Shown in pieces: positions 764-41,284 of a DNA stretch of 41,284 nt. Under the pieces are notes generated by a model. The model saw only the letters and a list, made by a program, of their open reading frames with translations, made no database searches and was not told where the DNA came from. The stretch is from a virus: positions 1 to 41,284 of IMG/VR virus record IMGVR_UViG_3300032177_000028. One strand, written 5' to 3'. The translations under genes and the position numbers were made by a program. The first letter of the stretch is position 1; each line of letters begins with the position of its first letter.

Positions 764-785
764 GCGGAGGGAGAGGGATTCGAAC
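764..785 (-). other. attP: attP core candidate: 3' end of a tRNA (probably tRNA-Ser)
   Basis: Read on the minus strand this is GTTCGAAT followed by CCCTC, TCCCTCC, G and C. These match in order a T-loop, the 3' strand of a T-stem, the 3' strand of an acceptor stem, a G discriminator and the first C of CCA. Upstream of the loop the tRNA resemblance stops (no matching GAGGG 5' T-stem strand), so this is a fragment and not a tRNA gene. Many integrases recombine in the 3' half of tRNA genes, and the phage copy restores the gene. The G discriminator and this acceptor sequence fit tRNA-Ser best, but the identity is inferred. Confidence 0.8.
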
Positions 786-14913: not shown

Positions 14914-14926
14914 GTCAGCCTCCTAT
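14903..14926 (-). repeat. Junction repeat, right side of HNH gene (3' copy)
   Basis: This 24-base segment contains the HNH stop, the ribosome site and the start codon of the MANTQ gene. It matches 15465-15488 at 18 of 24 positions. The encoded ends also agree (SIGG-stop here, RIGG-stop there; MAN.Q starts in both). ATAGGAGG is a common ribosome-site motif in this genome, so part of the match may be convergent. Confidence 0.55.
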
Positions 14927-15475
14927 GCTGAGATATTCAACGAGTCGTCTTGCCGTATTCGGGTCATCGTTGGCCAACCCGACCAGGCGGTTACAGCGCG
15001 TGCAGAGAAGACCACGGACCTTTCCCGTCTTATGGTCGTGATCTACGTCGAACACACTACGCACGCGCTTTTTGTATTTACGGTTCCCGCTTTCGGGAGT
15101 CGTAGACCGACAGAGCGCGCAAGCTCCGCCCTGATCGGCCAAGATTCGGTTGTAATCCTCTACGGTAATCCCGTAGAGGCGTTTCAGTTTCGACGGCCAC
15201 GCAACGCGTCGATAAAAGGACAGGTCGCTGTTGTTTAGGATGTATTCGGCCTTGACCTTAGCGGCGTTACATGGTTTACAGTATCCGGCCAAATGACCGC
15301 CTCGCGGCCCCGACTGCCTGACCGTGAATTCACTACGCGATTTCACGATGCCGCACTTTCGGCACTTCTTTGACTGCCGCCCTGCGCCGCGTAATGCCAT
15401 CGGCTCATGGGTAGAATGAGCGCGGTAGTAGCCCCGCATATAGGCAGCCGTTTCCTCGCCCTGCGCATTGGCCAA
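14915..15475 (-). CDS. Free-standing HNH endonuclease, endonuclease VII type
   Basis: The 186-residue protein has two zinc-binding pairs (CRKCGIVKSRSEF near residue 38, CKPCNAAK near 66) and an endonuclease-VII-like core: CALCRSTT, then DVDHDHKTGKVRGLLCTRCN. The HDH triad and CxxC pairs needed for catalysis and zinc are present. Such genes are usually mobile homing elements that cut phage DNA lacking the insert. It interrupts the structural gene series. The TTG start at 15475 is preferred because AGGGGG lies 5-6 nt before it and the context copies the downstream gene's start; an ATG at 15439 is the alternative. Confidence 0.88.
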   Translation of the reverse strand: MANAQGEETAAYMRGYYRAHSTHEPMALRGAGRQSKKCRKCGIVKSRSEFTVRQSGPRGGHLAGYCKPCNAAKVKAEYILNNSDLSFYRRVAWPSKLKRLYGITVEDYNRILADQGGACALCRSTTPESGNRKYKKRVRSVFDVDHDHKTGKVRGLLCTRCNRLVGLANDDPNTARRLVEYLSIGG

Positions 15476-18713: not shown

Positions 18714-19898
18714 TTATGCGTGCTCGGTCAGGACGCCGATTGCGAGCGGGTTGATGACCGCCCCGCCGACGCGCCTGCTGACCTGGAATCCGACCAGGCC
18801 CGCGTTGGCGTAGACCTCGCGCTTGACCTGGACGGTCATGCCCATCCTGTCGAGGATGCGGTAGCCGCTCTTGAAGTCGCCGAACATGCCGATCGGCTGG
18901 TTGACCTCGGCCAGGGTGTGCAGGTAGTCGCTGGTGTAGCAGGGCTTGCCGTTGAGCGTGTTGGGCTTGCCGGCCGCGACCGAGGGCTGCCAGGTGAACG
19001 TGCCGAGGGCGGCGTCCCTGAGCAGGCTCAGCGCGAGTTCGGTGGCCGAGTGGAAGATGTAGGCGCCGTTGGCCCGGTACTGCGAGGCGATCGTGTACTC
19101 GAACTGCTTGGTGTCCTCGATGTCGATGACGTTGATGACGTCGGTCACCGAGGCGACGCAGCCAGAAGCGGCGAGGATGATGCCCGAGGGCTGTTGGGAC
19201 CCGTGCCCCAAGCCCCGGATGAAGGCGTATTCCTCGGCCTCGGCGATCGCCCGGGAGAACCGCTCGTTGAGCGCCTGCTCCAGCGAGACGTCGCTGTCCA
19301 TGAGTTCGTCCTTGCCGATCTTGGTCTCGCCCTCCAGGTCCTCGACGTACTGCCAGAGCTCGACCGGGACGAGGGTCGACTCGGGCGGCGCGGCGCCGGT
19401 CTCGAGCTTGCCCCATCCCACCGTGACCTCGCCGATGCCCCTCAACTGGAGGCGGTCGCGGGTCGTGGTGCGGACCTGGCAGAGCGGCCGCATGATGTTG
19501 ATGTTGCCGAGGGTGCGGTAAATCTCGGCGTCGACGTCGGCGGGTACGAGGAGCTGTCCCGTGACGTCCTCGACGAGGGCCTTCGTCTCCAGGCGGAGGC
19601 GGTTATGGTAGTCGACCGCCTTGCCTTCGAGTTTGAGCGGGGCTCCCGTCCTGAGGGTCTGGAAGAAGGCGTGCTTGTATTCCGCCTCCCCCTCCACCTG
19701 TTTCTGGTCTCCCCGTTCCGCCGTCTGGAGCGGGGGCCGGCTGATGACCGTTTCGAGAGCGGCGATGCGGGGCGCGATCTTCTCCTCGAACTCCTTGAAG
19801 TCCGATTTGGTGAAGATGCCCTTCTCGTACTGCTCGAACCGGGTGCGGAACTCCCCTACGTACTTGTGGAGCTCCGTGATTTCCTTTTCGAGTTCCAT
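18714..19898 (-). CDS. Major capsid protein, HK97 fold
   Basis: The 394-residue protein begins with a coiled-coil delta-like domain (about residues 1-70: ELEKEITELHKYVGEFRTRF), usually removed by the prohead protease. The fold core includes VPADVDAEIYRTLGNINIMR, LVPVELWQYVEDLEGETKIG (E-loop region) and PIGMFGDFKSGYRILDRMGM, with the C-terminal GFQVSRRVGGAVINPLAI. All are typical of HK97 major capsids. Neighbours are the protease upstream and the connector genes downstream. AGGAGG precedes the ATG by 7 nt. Confidence 0.95.
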   Translation of the reverse strand: MELEKEITELHKYVGEFRTRFEQYEKGIFTKSDFKEFEEKIAPRIAALETVISRPPLQTAERGDQKQVEGEAEYKHAFFQTLRTGAPLKLEGKAVDYHNRLRLETKALVEDVTGQLLVPADVDAEIYRTLGNINIMRPLCQVRTTTRDRLQLRGIGEVTVGWGKLETGAAPPESTLVPVELWQYVEDLEGETKIGKDELMDSDVSLEQALNERFSRAIAEAEEYAFIRGLGHGSQQPSGIILAASGCVASVTDVINVIDIEDTKQFEYTIASQYRANGAYIFHSATELALSLLRDAALGTFTWQPSVAAGKPNTLNGKPCYTSDYLHTLAEVNQPIGMFGDFKSGYRILDRMGMTVQVKREVYANAGLVGFQVSRRVGGAVINPLAIGVLTEHA

Positions 19899-20822: not shown

Positions 20823-21320
20823 TCATTCTCCTTGATGCGGACAATAGCCCCGCATCCCGATTGACCAATTACAATTCATGCAGAGGATGCGGAAACCGTC
20901 CGGGAAGTTATTTTTTATAAGCCAGTTATAGAGAGCCCCCTGCCCAATTTGCCGCCGATGATTGTTCCCTCCGCCGCCAATATGGTCAATGGTCAAAAAT
21001 TCAATGTGGGATTCGCCGCAACATTCACACGTTGGATGAGAACCACCATAGAAAGCAAAGACGGCAGCGCGTTGGCCGGCCTGATGTTTCCGATTGTATT
21101 CGAGTCGAGATTCCCGATGAGTTTCAAAATAACGCCGCGAAAGTTCCCTGTAATATTCTTTATGAGCAAGGCGATATTGTTTTTCTTTTTCTCGGATTTG
21201 CTCTATGTGTTCAACCCGATATGCCCGTTGATATGTTTTTGCGGCAACGGGATTCTCTGCGCGTTTTTTAGCCATCCGCTTCCTAGCGCGTTCTCGTTTT
21301 TCTTCTAAGGACAGACTCAA
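20823..21320 (-). CDS. Free-standing HNH endonuclease between portal and protease
   Basis: The 165-residue protein has a long charged helical N-terminus (about 1-80, Lys/Arg/Glu-rich, probably DNA-binding) and an HNH core: CECCGESHIEFLTIDHIGGG, GNNHR and ILCMNCN, with zinc-binding CxxC pairs. The gene is much more AT-rich than its neighbours, a sign of separate origin. It separates portal from protease, which are usually adjacent. The start is TTG with GGAG 7 nt upstream; the first ATG (21275) would remove 15 residues. Confidence 0.88.
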   Translation of the reverse strand: MSLSLEEKRERARKRMAKKRAENPVAAKTYQRAYRVEHIEQIREKEKQYRLAHKEYYRELSRRYFETHRESRLEYNRKHQAGQRAAVFAFYGGSHPTCECCGESHIEFLTIDHIGGGGNNHRRQIGQGALYNWLIKNNFPDGFRILCMNCNWSIGMRGYCPHQGE

Positions 21321-30015: not shown

Positions 30016-30188
30016 GCTTTCTCCTTGTCCTTTGGCGTTTCCTTCGCCGTGAAGCGTCCGCAATATGGCCCCCGATACGTCGGGCAGAACCTGGGCTGGT
30101 CGAGGTCAACGGAGTGGGCGCACGCCTTGAACAGGTCGCACTCCTCACGCCAGAGGCAGAACGCGGGGCGGGGGTCTTTGGGGGTCAT
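30012..30188 (-). CDS. Small Cys-rich protein, 58 residues
   Basis: MTPKDPRPAFCLWREECDLF... contains five Cys (about 11, 17, 23, 35, 43) and a conserved-looking FCPTYRGPYCGRF, so a small zinc-binding fold is likely. It overlaps both neighbours by ATGA. The frame is too short for standard length cut-offs but the couplings and composition support it. Before HNH insertion it would have followed the resolvase-like gene directly. Confidence 0.7.
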   Translation of the reverse strand: MTPKDPRPAFCLWREECDLFKACAHSVDLDQPRFCPTYRGPYCGRFTAKETPKDKEKA

Positions 30189-30214
30189 GCGAATATCTCC
30201 ACCCGCTTTTTATG
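30184..30214 (-). repeat. Junction repeat, 3' end of the HNH gene
   Basis: This 31-base segment codes for the end of the HNH gene (HKKRVEIFA-stop) plus the ATGA overlap with the next gene. It matches 30627-30657 at 26 of 31 positions, including 18 of 19 at the stop/start end. It looks like a duplication of the original junction at the HNH insertion. Confidence 0.8.
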
Positions 30215-30631
30215 ATGGCGAGTATGTTCTCCCCTCGTTGAAAAAAGCATCAAGTTCTCAACACGATTGTCGTCCGTTTTCCCATTAATGTGGTGAACCA
30301 CCTCAGAGGGCAGGAGAGTTCTCCCAAGGTGGGCCTCCATAACGAGGCGATGTTCAAATACATAGCCCATGTTGTTGGCGTAGGGATGATCTGGACAATG
30401 CTTGCGAACATATCCCCTTTCGCAAATTATCCTTCCGCCCTTCCAGTTGTGGCACCTTGTCCCTCGTTGCGCTGCGGCGATTTTTTCTCTGGTTTCGGGA
30501 CTGACCTTTCGACCGCAATTTGCTGCCCCAATCTTCGCGTTCCACTCTGCTGTATGAGGACGGGGCTTCCCTTTCGTCTGCGCAGATATCCGAGCGCGAT
30601 GTTCTGCGCTACAATGAGAACCTTTCGTCAT
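30185..30631 (-). CDS. Free-standing HNH endonuclease with NUMOD3-like repeats
   Basis: The 148-residue protein begins with repeated SAEHRARISAQTKG-like, TAEWNAKIGAANCG-like and SPETREKIAAAQRG-like units (NUMOD3-type DNA-binding motifs, about residues 8-58). An HNH_3 core follows: EHRLVMEAHLGR, EVVHHINGKTDDNRVENLML and HTRHHKK. The gene is more AT-rich than its neighbours and overlaps both by ATGA. It interrupts a series of tightly packed genes and is bracketed by a duplicated junction. It is likely a mobile homing endonuclease. Confidence 0.9.
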   Translation of the reverse strand: MTKGSHCSAEHRARISAQTKGKPRPHTAEWNAKIGAANCGRKVSPETREKIAAAQRGTRCHNWKGGRIICERGYVRKHCPDHPYANNMGYVFEHRLVMEAHLGRTLLPSEVVHHINGKTDDNRVENLMLFSTRGEHTRHHKKRVEIFA

Positions 30632-31837: not shown

Positions 31838-31912
31838 TCAACCTCTCTCCTCCGACCTTGCGATAACGCCGCCCGCGATCCACCCGGGCAGAAAGACGCG
31901 GAGGATCTTCAT
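31838..31912 (-). CDS. Candidate 24-residue peptide
   Basis: MKILRVFLPGWIAGGVIARSEERG, given here as two parts: MKILRVFLPGWIAGG and VIARSEERG. The ATG overlaps the upstream stop as ATGA, and the stop is 4 nt before the next ATG. Its last codons include the ribosome site of the next gene, so the peptide may mainly be a coupling leader. Low certainty because of length. Confidence 0.4.
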   Translation of the reverse strand: MKILRVFLPGWIAGGVIARSEERG

Positions 31913-32232
31913 GTGAACAGCCTCCCCTGCTCCCCGCTCGCCCCCGCGTCCCGTATCTCCCGCTCCCGAACGAGTTCGCTCATCGCATGGGAATGGAGTT
32001 GGCCTTGGGCGATCTTGCGGTCCTCGGCGGTCACGATCCAGAATATGCCCTTGCTACACGACCCCACCTTGCCCATGTTCTCGTAGGCCTTGCGCATCTT
32101 CCGGTCGTCTATCGCATGGCCCTGGAGGTGAAGGTGGTGAAGTAGGTGACGCCGGGGTGTCGCCCTGGCCGCGCCGTAAGCATGGTCGATGAGGAAAGAC
32201 TGGATATCGGTGACGAGCAGAGATTCGCTCAT
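31909..32232 (-). CDS. Winged-helix-like phage protein
   Basis: The 107-residue protein fits a phage winged-helix pattern: DIQSFLIDHAYGAARATPRR, LQGHAIDDRKMRKAYENMGK and SCSKGIFWIVTAEDR. It overlaps both neighbours by ATGA. It may bind DNA, but no target or role is known. Confidence 0.65.
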   Translation of the reverse strand: MSESLLVTDIQSFLIDHAYGAARATPRRHLLHHLHLQGHAIDDRKMRKAYENMGKVGSCSKGIFWIVTAEDRKIAQGQLHSHAMSELVREREIRDAGASGEQGRLFT

Positions 32233-32711
32233 GGCTCGACCTCGATGCCGAGTTCACGGAGTATGCCGACTATGGCGTCAATAACATAACTATCCAAGCC
32301 GTATCTGTGAGGGATGAACCTGTCCGATAGCCACTTCCGCCTCGCGACCTTGGGCTTTAGCGCGGCCCGGATAACGGCGAGGGCGGCTTTGTATTGCTCT
32401 TTGAATGGACATGGAAACAAGGCGTCGCCCTCGGCGGAAAGAACTCTCATCGCCTCCTCGACCTCGGGCAGGGGGGCGGGTAAGCGGGGACCCGGACTCG
32501 AACCGGGACCATCGGGCTTACGCTCGATTCCTACATTAGACGACCCCCGCAATTTGTCCTTCTCGCCCGAGGATTCGATAGGCTTCGTATTGACCTCGTA
32601 TGCCCAAAGAGCGGCAAGCCAAGCGTTACGGGCCAGATACTTTGACCCCTTCATGCTGGCCCCCATTGTGACGGCCCACCACTCCTCAAATCTTTCCCGT
32701 TCGTCTTTCAT
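32229..32711 (-). CDS. Hypothetical protein containing a tRNA-like coding segment
   Basis: The 160-residue protein starts MKDERERFEEWWAVTMG, with AW-rich helices common in small phage proteins. A central linker (about residues 54-77) is coded by a sequence folding like a tRNA (32484-32550), then VEEAMRVLSAEGD... to the end. The ATG has AGGGGGAAG upstream and overlaps the previous stop. The linker replaces what is usually a variable region. Function unknown. Confidence 0.65.
   Translation of the reverse strand: MKDERERFEEWWAVTMGASMKGSKYLARNAWLAALWAYEVNTKPIESSGEKDKLRGSSNVGIERKPDGPGSSPGPRLPAPLPEVEEAMRVLSAEGDALFPCPFKEQYKAALAVIRAALKPKVARRKWLSDRFIPHRYGLDSYVIDAIVGILRELGIEVEP
32484..32550 (-). pseudogene. 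Degenerate tRNA-like sequence inside a coding region
   Basis: The minus strand gives a 7-bp acceptor stem (GCGGGGG with TCCCCGC, one G-U), a D-arm-like TCGTCTAATGTAGGA, an anticodon-like arm with one mismatch and a 6-base loop (CGTAAG), and a perfect T-arm (CCCGG, TTCGAGT, CCGGG). At 67 bases it is about 5-9 shorter than a normal tRNA and no CCA follows. TCGTCTAATG.TAGG is a typical tRNA D-arm sequence. Most likely a captured, decayed tRNA that is now translated as protein linker. Confidence 0.65.
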
Positions 32712-33199
32712 TTCTTCCCCCTAAGTGCGAGGGCGGCGCGGAGGATGGCCTGGCCAGTTTCCATCCCACAGCGGAATATGCCATCTTCTTCGTAGATTGC
32801 CCCGTTCGCCGCCTCTACCAGCGGCCTCTGCTTTTCGAGTTCGGCCATCTGCTCGATGATGACCGCCCCGTTCTTAGCGTTGGTCATTTGGGCGGAGAGG
32901 AGTTCGGCTTTCAATCGCGTTGCCGCCGTAAACGGCCACTCGTCCCCACAACCCAACGCCGACTGGATGTCCTTGATGATTGCCTTTTTCATGTCGAGTT
33001 CGGCCTTGGCTTTCTCGGCCCTTGCGAGCCATCGGTCGGCTAAACTATGGTCAAGATTGTGCAGGTAAGTAAGCCGCTCGTTCTCCTCCCGCAGGGAGGA
33101 GTAGTCGTCGCACAAGTCCATAAAGTCGGGCGGCAGGTTTTGGTCAAGGGCATACTCCCGCAACTCCTCAACCCTCTCGGCTGATAGCGGGGCGGTCAT
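32708..33199 (-). CDS. Hypothetical coiled-coil protein
   Basis: The 163-residue protein (MTAPLSAERVEELREYALDQ...) is mostly helical with coiled-coil stretches (about 30-65 and 105-130) and resembles variable Ea22-like early proteins of phages in composition. It ends RAALALRGKK, similar to the AAL motif of its neighbour. Overlaps both neighbours by ATGA. Confidence 0.65.
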   Translation of the reverse strand: MTAPLSAERVEELREYALDQNLPPDFMDLCDDYSSLREENERLTYLHNLDHSLADRWLARAEKAKAELDMKKAIIKDIQSALGCGDEWPFTAATRLKAELLSAQMTNAKNGAVIIEQMAELEKQRPLVEAANGAIYEEDGIFRCGMETGQAILRAALALRGKK

Positions 33200-33702: not shown

Positions 33703-33869
33703 TTAAACCTCACCTCCTGGACGAATGGCTTGACCGGATCGGACACGTTCTTTGAGCATCGCTCGTCGATGATGATGAAGACCAGCCCCGCGAGAATGGC
33801 AACGAGGACGATACCGGCGAGTAGATTGGCGAGGATGCGAGCATGGGAAATAAAGAACCTGGGGTTCAT
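33699..33869 (-). CDS. Small single-helix membrane protein, 56 residues
   Basis: MNPRFFISHARILANLLAGI... with a strong hydrophobic helix (about 14-34, ending VFIII) and a soluble C-terminus (DERCSKNVSDPVKPFVQEV). The ATG overlaps the stop of the HNH gene as ATGA. Function unknown. Confidence 0.62.
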   Translation of the reverse strand: MNPRFFISHARILANLLAGIVLVAILAGLVFIIIDERCSKNVSDPVKPFVQEVRFK

Positions 33870-34339
33870 TTTTTCTCCTCAAGATAATCTGCCATAGCCC
33901 GCGCAATGCCAGGATTGTCTCTGATATAACCTAGGCCCGTGTTGCAAGAACTACATACAATGCCCCTGATTTTTCCCGTGGTGTGGTCATGGTCAACGTG
34001 AGGCCCCCTTCCGTTCCAGTCCATCCTTTTACAAATGGCGCATGCGCCGCCCTGGCTATCAAGGAGAGCGTTATACTGGAGTAGCGAAATCCCGTAGGCC
34101 TTGACCAACTTGCGCTCTCTTAGTTCTTCCCGATGGATAATGTTATATTTCCTGTGATAAACTATTCGTTCTTCCCTGTGGGCATCATTCCAGACCTTAC
34201 ACCTGGCCTGGTGTTCTTTCTTGTGTGACATATAGTAAGCATGGCACCGCGCCTGGGTCTCGTCCCGATGTGAGGCATAATACCTTGCGTGTTTTTCTTT
34301 CTCGTGCGCAATTCGCAAATCGGCGTCGATGGCTTTCAT
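33866..34339 (-). CDS. Free-standing HNH endonuclease, endonuclease VII type
   Basis: The 157-residue protein has a highly charged, repeat-like N-terminus (about 8-85: HARYYASHRDETQARCHAYY) and an endonuclease VII core: GGACAICKRMDWNG, GPHVDHDHTTGKIRGIVCSS and CNTGLG. The zinc pairs and HDH triad are intact. The gene is AT-rich compared with its neighbours. The ATG at 34339 has GGGGAGGGGAG upstream and overlaps the tiny membrane frame by ATGA. Likely a mobile homing gene. Confidence 0.88.
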   Translation of the reverse strand: MKAIDADLRIAHEKEKHARYYASHRDETQARCHAYYMSHKKEHQARCKVWNDAHREERIVYHRKYNIIHREELRERKLVKAYGISLLQYNALLDSQGGACAICKRMDWNGRGPHVDHDHTTGKIRGIVCSSCNTGLGYIRDNPGIARAMADYLEEKK

Positions 34340-34422
34340 CTCCCCTCCCCCGTCCTCCCGCAGATAGTGCCGGCCCAGAGACCGAGAATAAGGGCCAGCC
34401 AGCACCAGCGAAGGCGAATCAT
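34336..34422 (-). CDS. Tiny membrane peptide, 28 residues
   Basis: MIRLRWCWLALILGLWAGTI then CGRTGEGR: a basic start, one hydrophobic helix and a short tail. Start and stop overlap the neighbouring genes by ATGA. Its 3' codons contain the ribosome site of the HNH gene. Either a real small membrane protein or a coupling frame. Confidence 0.5.
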   Translation of the reverse strand: MIRLRWCWLALILGLWAGTICGRTGEGR

Positions 34423-41271: not shown

Positions 41272-41284
41272 GACCGGTCCGGGC
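41143..41284. repeat. Terminal direct repeat, right copy
   Basis: Matches bases 1-142 with one mismatch (T at 41269 for G at 127). Merging the copies gives a circle of about 41,142 bp. Confidence 0.95.

Follow-up and report, generated by a model that had tools for sequence, protein, structure and literature searches.

A probable tRNA relic read in frame within a small early gene of a temperate phage

The IMG/VR virus record IMGVR_UViG_3300032177_000028, analyzed here from position 1 to position 41,284 (this whole stretch of 41,284 nucleotides (nt) is called the window), contains a tRNA-like element inside a 160-amino-acid (aa) open reading frame (ORF) on the minus strand. The element is real and odd, and it is probably a translated pseudo-tRNA. 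The explanation that we favor, and consider likely, is that it is what remains of a tRNA gene of bacterial type. It would lie in a small accessory gene, one of the early genes of an uncultivated temperate phage, and be read by ribosomes as a flexible linker. The element derives from a tRNA, it stands in frame in an ORF that overlaps both of its neighbors, and it reads like noncoding sequence between flanks that read like coding sequence. Presumably the protein is made, and the RNA itself would no longer have a tRNA function. The clearest evidence is provided by the codon statistics, which point to a fairly recent tRNA relic that is read through as a linker.

Coding signal of the host ORF

Scored against the other genes of the phage, the codons of the host ORF give +0.23 bits per codon before the element, -0.63 in the element and +0.12 after it. 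A score as low as that of the element is found in 0.3% of 326 segments of 23 codons from the other genes, and the mean for wrong frames is -0.54. That is, the flanks are coding-like in one frame and the element is at the noncoding level, written like an RNA. Its in-frame codons read L-R-GSSNVGIERKPDGPGSSPG-P-R-L. The 12 outer base pairs and the T-loop survive in just 29 of 200,000 random synonymous versions of this peptide; therefore, the peptide does not account for the fold.

The host ORF shares ATGA overlaps with both the upstream gene (32708-33199) and the downstream gene (31909-32232), which agrees with the tight coupling reported for it in the first-pass annotation, an earlier reading of this DNA. 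The same annotation held that the element is translated as a linker; this is probable. The element is in frame and on the sense strand between coding-like flanks. A structure model of low confidence (pLDDT 48), consulted solely for the order of helix and coil, predicts helices at residues 4-17, 24-42 and from 82 on, with coil at residues 43-81, the part that includes the element.

An ORF that runs through a tRNA is not rare by itself. Among 759 called tRNAs and some added sites there are 33 sense-strand overlaps between an ORF and a tRNA, and in many of these the ORF, set in a tRNA array, is probably spurious. What distinguishes the present case is the coding signal on both sides.

The element and its tRNA features

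Read on the minus strand from 32550 to 32483, the element is GCGGGGG-TC-GTCTAATGTAGGA-...-CCCGG-TTCGAGT-CCGGG-TCCCCGC-T, and its parts are listed in Table 1. The tRNA-shaped sequence that had been proposed at 32484-32550, in frame on the sense strand, is thus confirmed with one more nucleotide. The tRNA model RF00005 matches it over its full length (1-71) with 29.2 bits and an E value of 2.1e-4 when cmscan is run on 251 bases against 4227 families, narrowly above the Rfam gathering cut-off of 29 bits for this family. Rescaled to RF00005 alone and to the whole window, the E value is about 8e-6 by our own arithmetic. The element is not reported by ARAGORN at default settings, by cmscan on the whole window or by a search of the whole record with RF00005. 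At 95% of its threshold, ARAGORN reports one site in the 41-kb window, which is the element, as tRNA-??? with a 2-nt anticodon ('ta'). At the same 95% threshold, ARAGORN finds a match in one of 3000 dinucleotide shuffles of the gene and in three of 3000 codon shuffles.

We also used a descriptor that combines a 7-bp acceptor stem, a 5-bp T-stem and a TTCRANY loop at tRNA spacing, and applied it to both strands of 4.66 Mb of phage and genome DNA. Apart from the element itself, all of its matches outside called tRNAs are in loci that had been chosen because they carry a tRNA T-arm, and there is none in the loci obtained by terminase homology. This distribution argues that the resemblance to a tRNA is not due to chance. 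The folding energy of the element is ordinary (z -1.37 relative to shuffles), and its signal lies in tRNA-specific sequence and geometry rather than in overall folding energy.

Table 1. Features of the tRNA-like element, its host ORF and the likely phage attachment site
Feature	Position	Strand	Remarks
tRNA-like element (probable tRNA-Gly-like relic), 68 nt including discriminator U	32483..32550	minus	RF00005, 29.2 bits; ARAGORN only at 95% threshold
Acceptor stem, 5' strand, GCGGGGG	32544..32550	minus	pairs 7/7 with 32484-32490
Acceptor stem, 3' strand, TCCCCGC	32484..32490	minus	discriminator T (32483) comes next, then TACC; CCA not encoded
D-arm remnant, GTCTAATGTAGGA(AT)	32527..32541	minus	conserved G18-G19 pair reduced to one G; gap in cmscan alignment
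Shortened anticodon arm, CGAGCGUAAGCCCG, and variable region	32508..32526	minus	from fold; ARAGORN 'ta' loop
Intact T-arm, CCCGG-TTCGAGT-CCGGG	32491..32507	minus	RF00005 match; 5/5 T-stem pairs
Inverted repeat, left arm, TCGACCTCGGGC	32458..32469		1.9% of window positions do equally well
Inverted repeat, right arm, GCCCGAGGATTCGA	32565..32578		2-nt bulge
Host ORF, 160 aa	32229..32711	minus	N-terminal helical module 1-53, tRNA-derived linker ~54-77, C-terminal helical module ~80-160 (predicted)
Likely attP, 22-nt 3' end of tRNA-Ser	764..785	minus	15 bp after integrase stop codon

The full acceptor and T stems claimed by the first-pass annotation are present, with 7 of 7 pairs (one of them G.U) and 5 of 5 pairs, respectively. 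The D-arm-like sequence and the short anticodon-like arm that it described can be recognized as well. The D-stem has three of four pairs and one mismatch, and the anticodon arm has four of five pairs, one A.C mismatch and a loop of 4 nt, GUAA (or of 6 nt, CGUAAG). Two to three bases of the anticodon loop are gone and so the anticodon cannot be read. U8 and the D-arm consensus accompany the acceptor stem, the T-arm and the T-loop.

Of the features of a functional tRNA, the element has intact acceptor and T arms. It lacks a 7-nt anticodon loop bearing U33, its anticodon is unreadable, and only one G is left of the G18-G19 pair that the elbow uses; it is unlikely that the RNA works as a tRNA. As expected of a tRNA pseudogene, the element combines clear tRNA homology with disabling lesions.

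The acceptor start G-C-G and the discriminator U make bacterial tRNA-Gly the likely isotype. The element has the G1-C72, C2-G71, G3-C70 and U73 of a bacterial tRNA-Gly; it shows no NCC anticodon, as the anticodon is lost. Among the surveyed tRNAs, 28 begin with GCGGG, of which 19 are Gly and nine are Leu. The D-arm motif GTCTAATGG is seen in Gln and Glu tRNAs; therefore, the assignment is likely, short of certain. No tRNA pattern with the D-arm of the element was found in the viral_contigs collection.

The element is flanked by an inverted repeat, TCGA(AT)CCTCGGGC, of 12 bp with a 2-nt bulge, which puts it at the tip of a longer stem. As other positions of the window do equally well at the rate given in Table 1, the repeat is only suggestive and possibly due to chance.

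Homologues and genomic setting

All homologue searches may omit records that are very close to the window. Within that scope, no homologue of the 160-aa protein was found in the viral_contigs, phages, plasmids or genome_contigs collections, or in 49 related phage records. Weak matches of 16-21 bits in 396 genomes were dropped as chance, most of them containing internal stop codons. The protein has no Pfam match, and its PHROGs match is weak (E 0.056). The genes next to the host ORF, used as bait, gave no match in viral_contigs.

The downstream neighbor has weak relatives in phages related to this one by terminase, which have their late genes and some early genes in common with the window. The syntenic place in these related phages holds no such element, and in the most syntenic of them (G012) other small genes are found there. 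The host ORF belongs to a mosaic region and is accessory. Among the genomes, the closest terminases are on short contigs of an Aminicenantes bin and a Verrucomicrobiota bin. Terminase relatives with 40-47% identity are also found on contigs of Bathyarchaeota and Diapherotrites bins (L224-L227 and L233), some of them long; these are more distant than the ones from bacterial bins.

Elsewhere in the window, Pfam and PHROGs identify an endonuclease VII-like HNH gene at 33866-34405, and three other ORFs, at 14915-15475, 20823-21320 and 30185-30631, resemble small endonucleases of the HNH type on visual inspection, so that several nucleases of the homing type may be encoded by the phage.

Attachment site

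The two ends of the window overlap by 142 bases, of which 141 are identical, and the integrase gene continues from one end into the other. These two observations indicate a circular phage genome of about 41.1 kb. The attP, as judged from sequence, is very probably the 22-nt tRNA-Ser 3' end in Table 1. In the phylum of G050 this 22-mer is present in 50 of 297 genomes, and in that of G051 in 10 of 289 (a reversed control gave 0). It stands at the end of a tRNA-Ser in all seven loci that were checked. On the circular genome, about 9.4 kb separate the tRNA-like element from the likely attP, and so the element is not a tRNA 3' end adjoining the integrase, as an attP would be.

In a related phage, a weak tRNA match of 16.5 bits (L203 1501-1568, equal to G032 18991-19058) resembles a tRNA 3' end. 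Perhaps this is the attP of that phage, with a different tRNA.

Proposed origin

We suggest that a tRNA gene, or a fragment of one, entered a mosaic gene or the joint of two small genes or modules by illegitimate recombination, in the orientation of the gene. The anticodon and some of the D-loop would then have disappeared, leaving an element without a stop codon in the frame of the gene. With no in-frame stop in the element, ribosomes would read through it and make the 160-aa protein, in which it would serve as a flexible linker of about 24 residues.

Several points weigh against this explanation. No homologue of the protein was found, either with or without the insert, and insertion into an existing gene looks the same as a fusion of two genes. 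Nor was an intact parent tRNA found among the phages, the plasmids or the genomes of the two phyla (BLAST E <= 1e-4 in the phyla). In addition, the outer half of the element, the 12 bp of the acceptor and T arms, is undamaged, and every lesion falls within the inner half. This could be a sign of retention, but the lesions number only about four and the point is a weak one.

Alternative explanations

One alternative is that the element is a working tRNA-like part of the mRNA that controls its processing, a possibility that the first-pass annotation had also raised. Host RNase P (with a 5' cut near 32550) or RNase Z would then recognize the acceptor/T-arm helix, cut the polycistronic early mRNA within the gene and tune the ratio of upstream to downstream products. 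The outer 12-bp helix and the T-loop are intact, and the element folds locally into a cloverleaf-like shape that remains likely when flanks of up to 60 nt are added to both sides (acceptor pair probability 0.66 to 0.93), except at 15 nt. There is also precedent for RNase P cleavage in phages. According to PMC11143913, RNase P cuts some phage RNAs and mRNAs, including the T4 gene 32 mRNA, M3 RNA and C4 antisense RNA. However, the stability of the fold is no better than that of shuffles (z -1.37 and -0.37), and a competing fold reduces the acceptor helix to a probability of 0.0 at 15 nt of flank and 0.34 at 80 nt. Moreover, one of G18 and G19 in the elbow is lost and no CCA is encoded, which are parts used by RNase P and RNase Z, and no conserved homologue was found in the four collections named above. 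A cut within the gene would also destroy its own message. The case for RNase P or RNase Z control of mRNA processing is therefore weak, and we consider this explanation rather improbable.

A related proposal, to which we give slightly less credit, is dual coding: an anticodon-less tRNA-like RNA would have been kept since its acceptor/T-arm helix acts in the transcript, with RNase P, RNase Z or another tRNA-binding enzyme, and the same bases would encode the protein linker. If the RNA were still recognized by tRNA enzymes, the element would be a processing switch inside a gene, and far more interesting.

It is quite unlikely that the element is a GC-rich coding stretch that resembles a tRNA by chance. 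The default ARAGORN run and the whole-window searches overlook it, and relaxed ARAGORN finds matches in about 0.03 to 0.1% of the shuffles of the gene. However, the covariance-model match is much better than that, with the rescaled value of about 8e-6 per window, and the acceptor stem, T-arm, T-loop, U8 and D-arm consensus are all present together. The terminase-homology loci have no such descriptor match outside called tRNAs, and the codon score falls to the noncoding level exactly across the element.

Just as doubtful is the idea that there are two separate genes with a tRNA relic between them, the read-through ORF being accidental and the C-terminal part starting at an internal ATG (codon 88, 32450) after GAGGAGG. 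GAGGAGGCGATG does stand before M88, and in tRNA arrays, as indicated above, mechanically derived ORFs often run across genuine tRNAs. However, ribosomes that start at 32711 meet no stop before 32229, and so the fusion would be made regardless. Only 2 nt separate GAGGAGG from the ATG, and the low-confidence model has a helix that begins at residue 82, ahead of M88.

Finally, the suggestion in the first-pass annotation that imprecise excision pulled in the tRNA, which for a prophage would come from beside the attachment site, is very unlikely and largely refuted by position, because excision of this kind would put the extra tRNA beside attP, and the Gly-like element resembles a different tRNA from the tRNA-Ser of the likely attP; in one bacterial genome (L262) the matching tRNA-Ser does follow a tRNA-Gly at a distance of 20 bp, but this tRNA-Gly aligns poorly with the element, above all in the T-arm.

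Comparison with known systems

Like other phage tRNA genes and pseudogenes, the element combines a tRNA fold with the invariant T-loop in a phage genome, and decayed copies are also found in other phages. For example, two viral contigs have tRNA-like sequences with intact acceptor and T arms and a truncated middle that ARAGORN misses (L094 at 4187, minus strand, and L050 at 4133, plus strand). Damaged or uncalled tRNA-like sequences are likewise seen next to other phage tRNAs, and some have shortened anticodon arms, as in these two contigs. The element differs in being solitary, outside of arrays and without a readable anticodon, and in standing in frame within a gene that is coding-like on both sides. 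The titles and abstracts of the open-licence papers that matched a literature search describe no in-frame tRNA relic in a phage.

The RNase P substrates in PMC11143913 are similar in that a non-tRNA RNA possibly offers a tRNA-like shape to the enzyme. They are described there as substrates, whereas the element is at most a candidate for one. The phages with tRNA-dependent lysogeny (PMC10865867) share with this phage a temperate life style, a tyrosine integrase, attachment at a tRNA of the host and a genome that includes a tRNA-like sequence; here, attP has 22 nt of a tRNA-Ser and the element resembles a different, broken tRNA. More generally, tyrosine-integrase attP sites with tRNA 3' ends are tRNA-derived sequences in temperate phages, and this phage very probably has one at 764-785. 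The element, in contrast, comprises an entire tRNA body and lies inside a gene, 9.4 kb away from the integrase.

Conclusions

Relics inside genes escape default tRNA finders, and so their frequency cannot be taken from such finders. In the present case a tRNA relic has probably become protein-coding sequence, in which the flanks are coding-like and the insert is not, and it would show how mosaic phage genes gain linkers.
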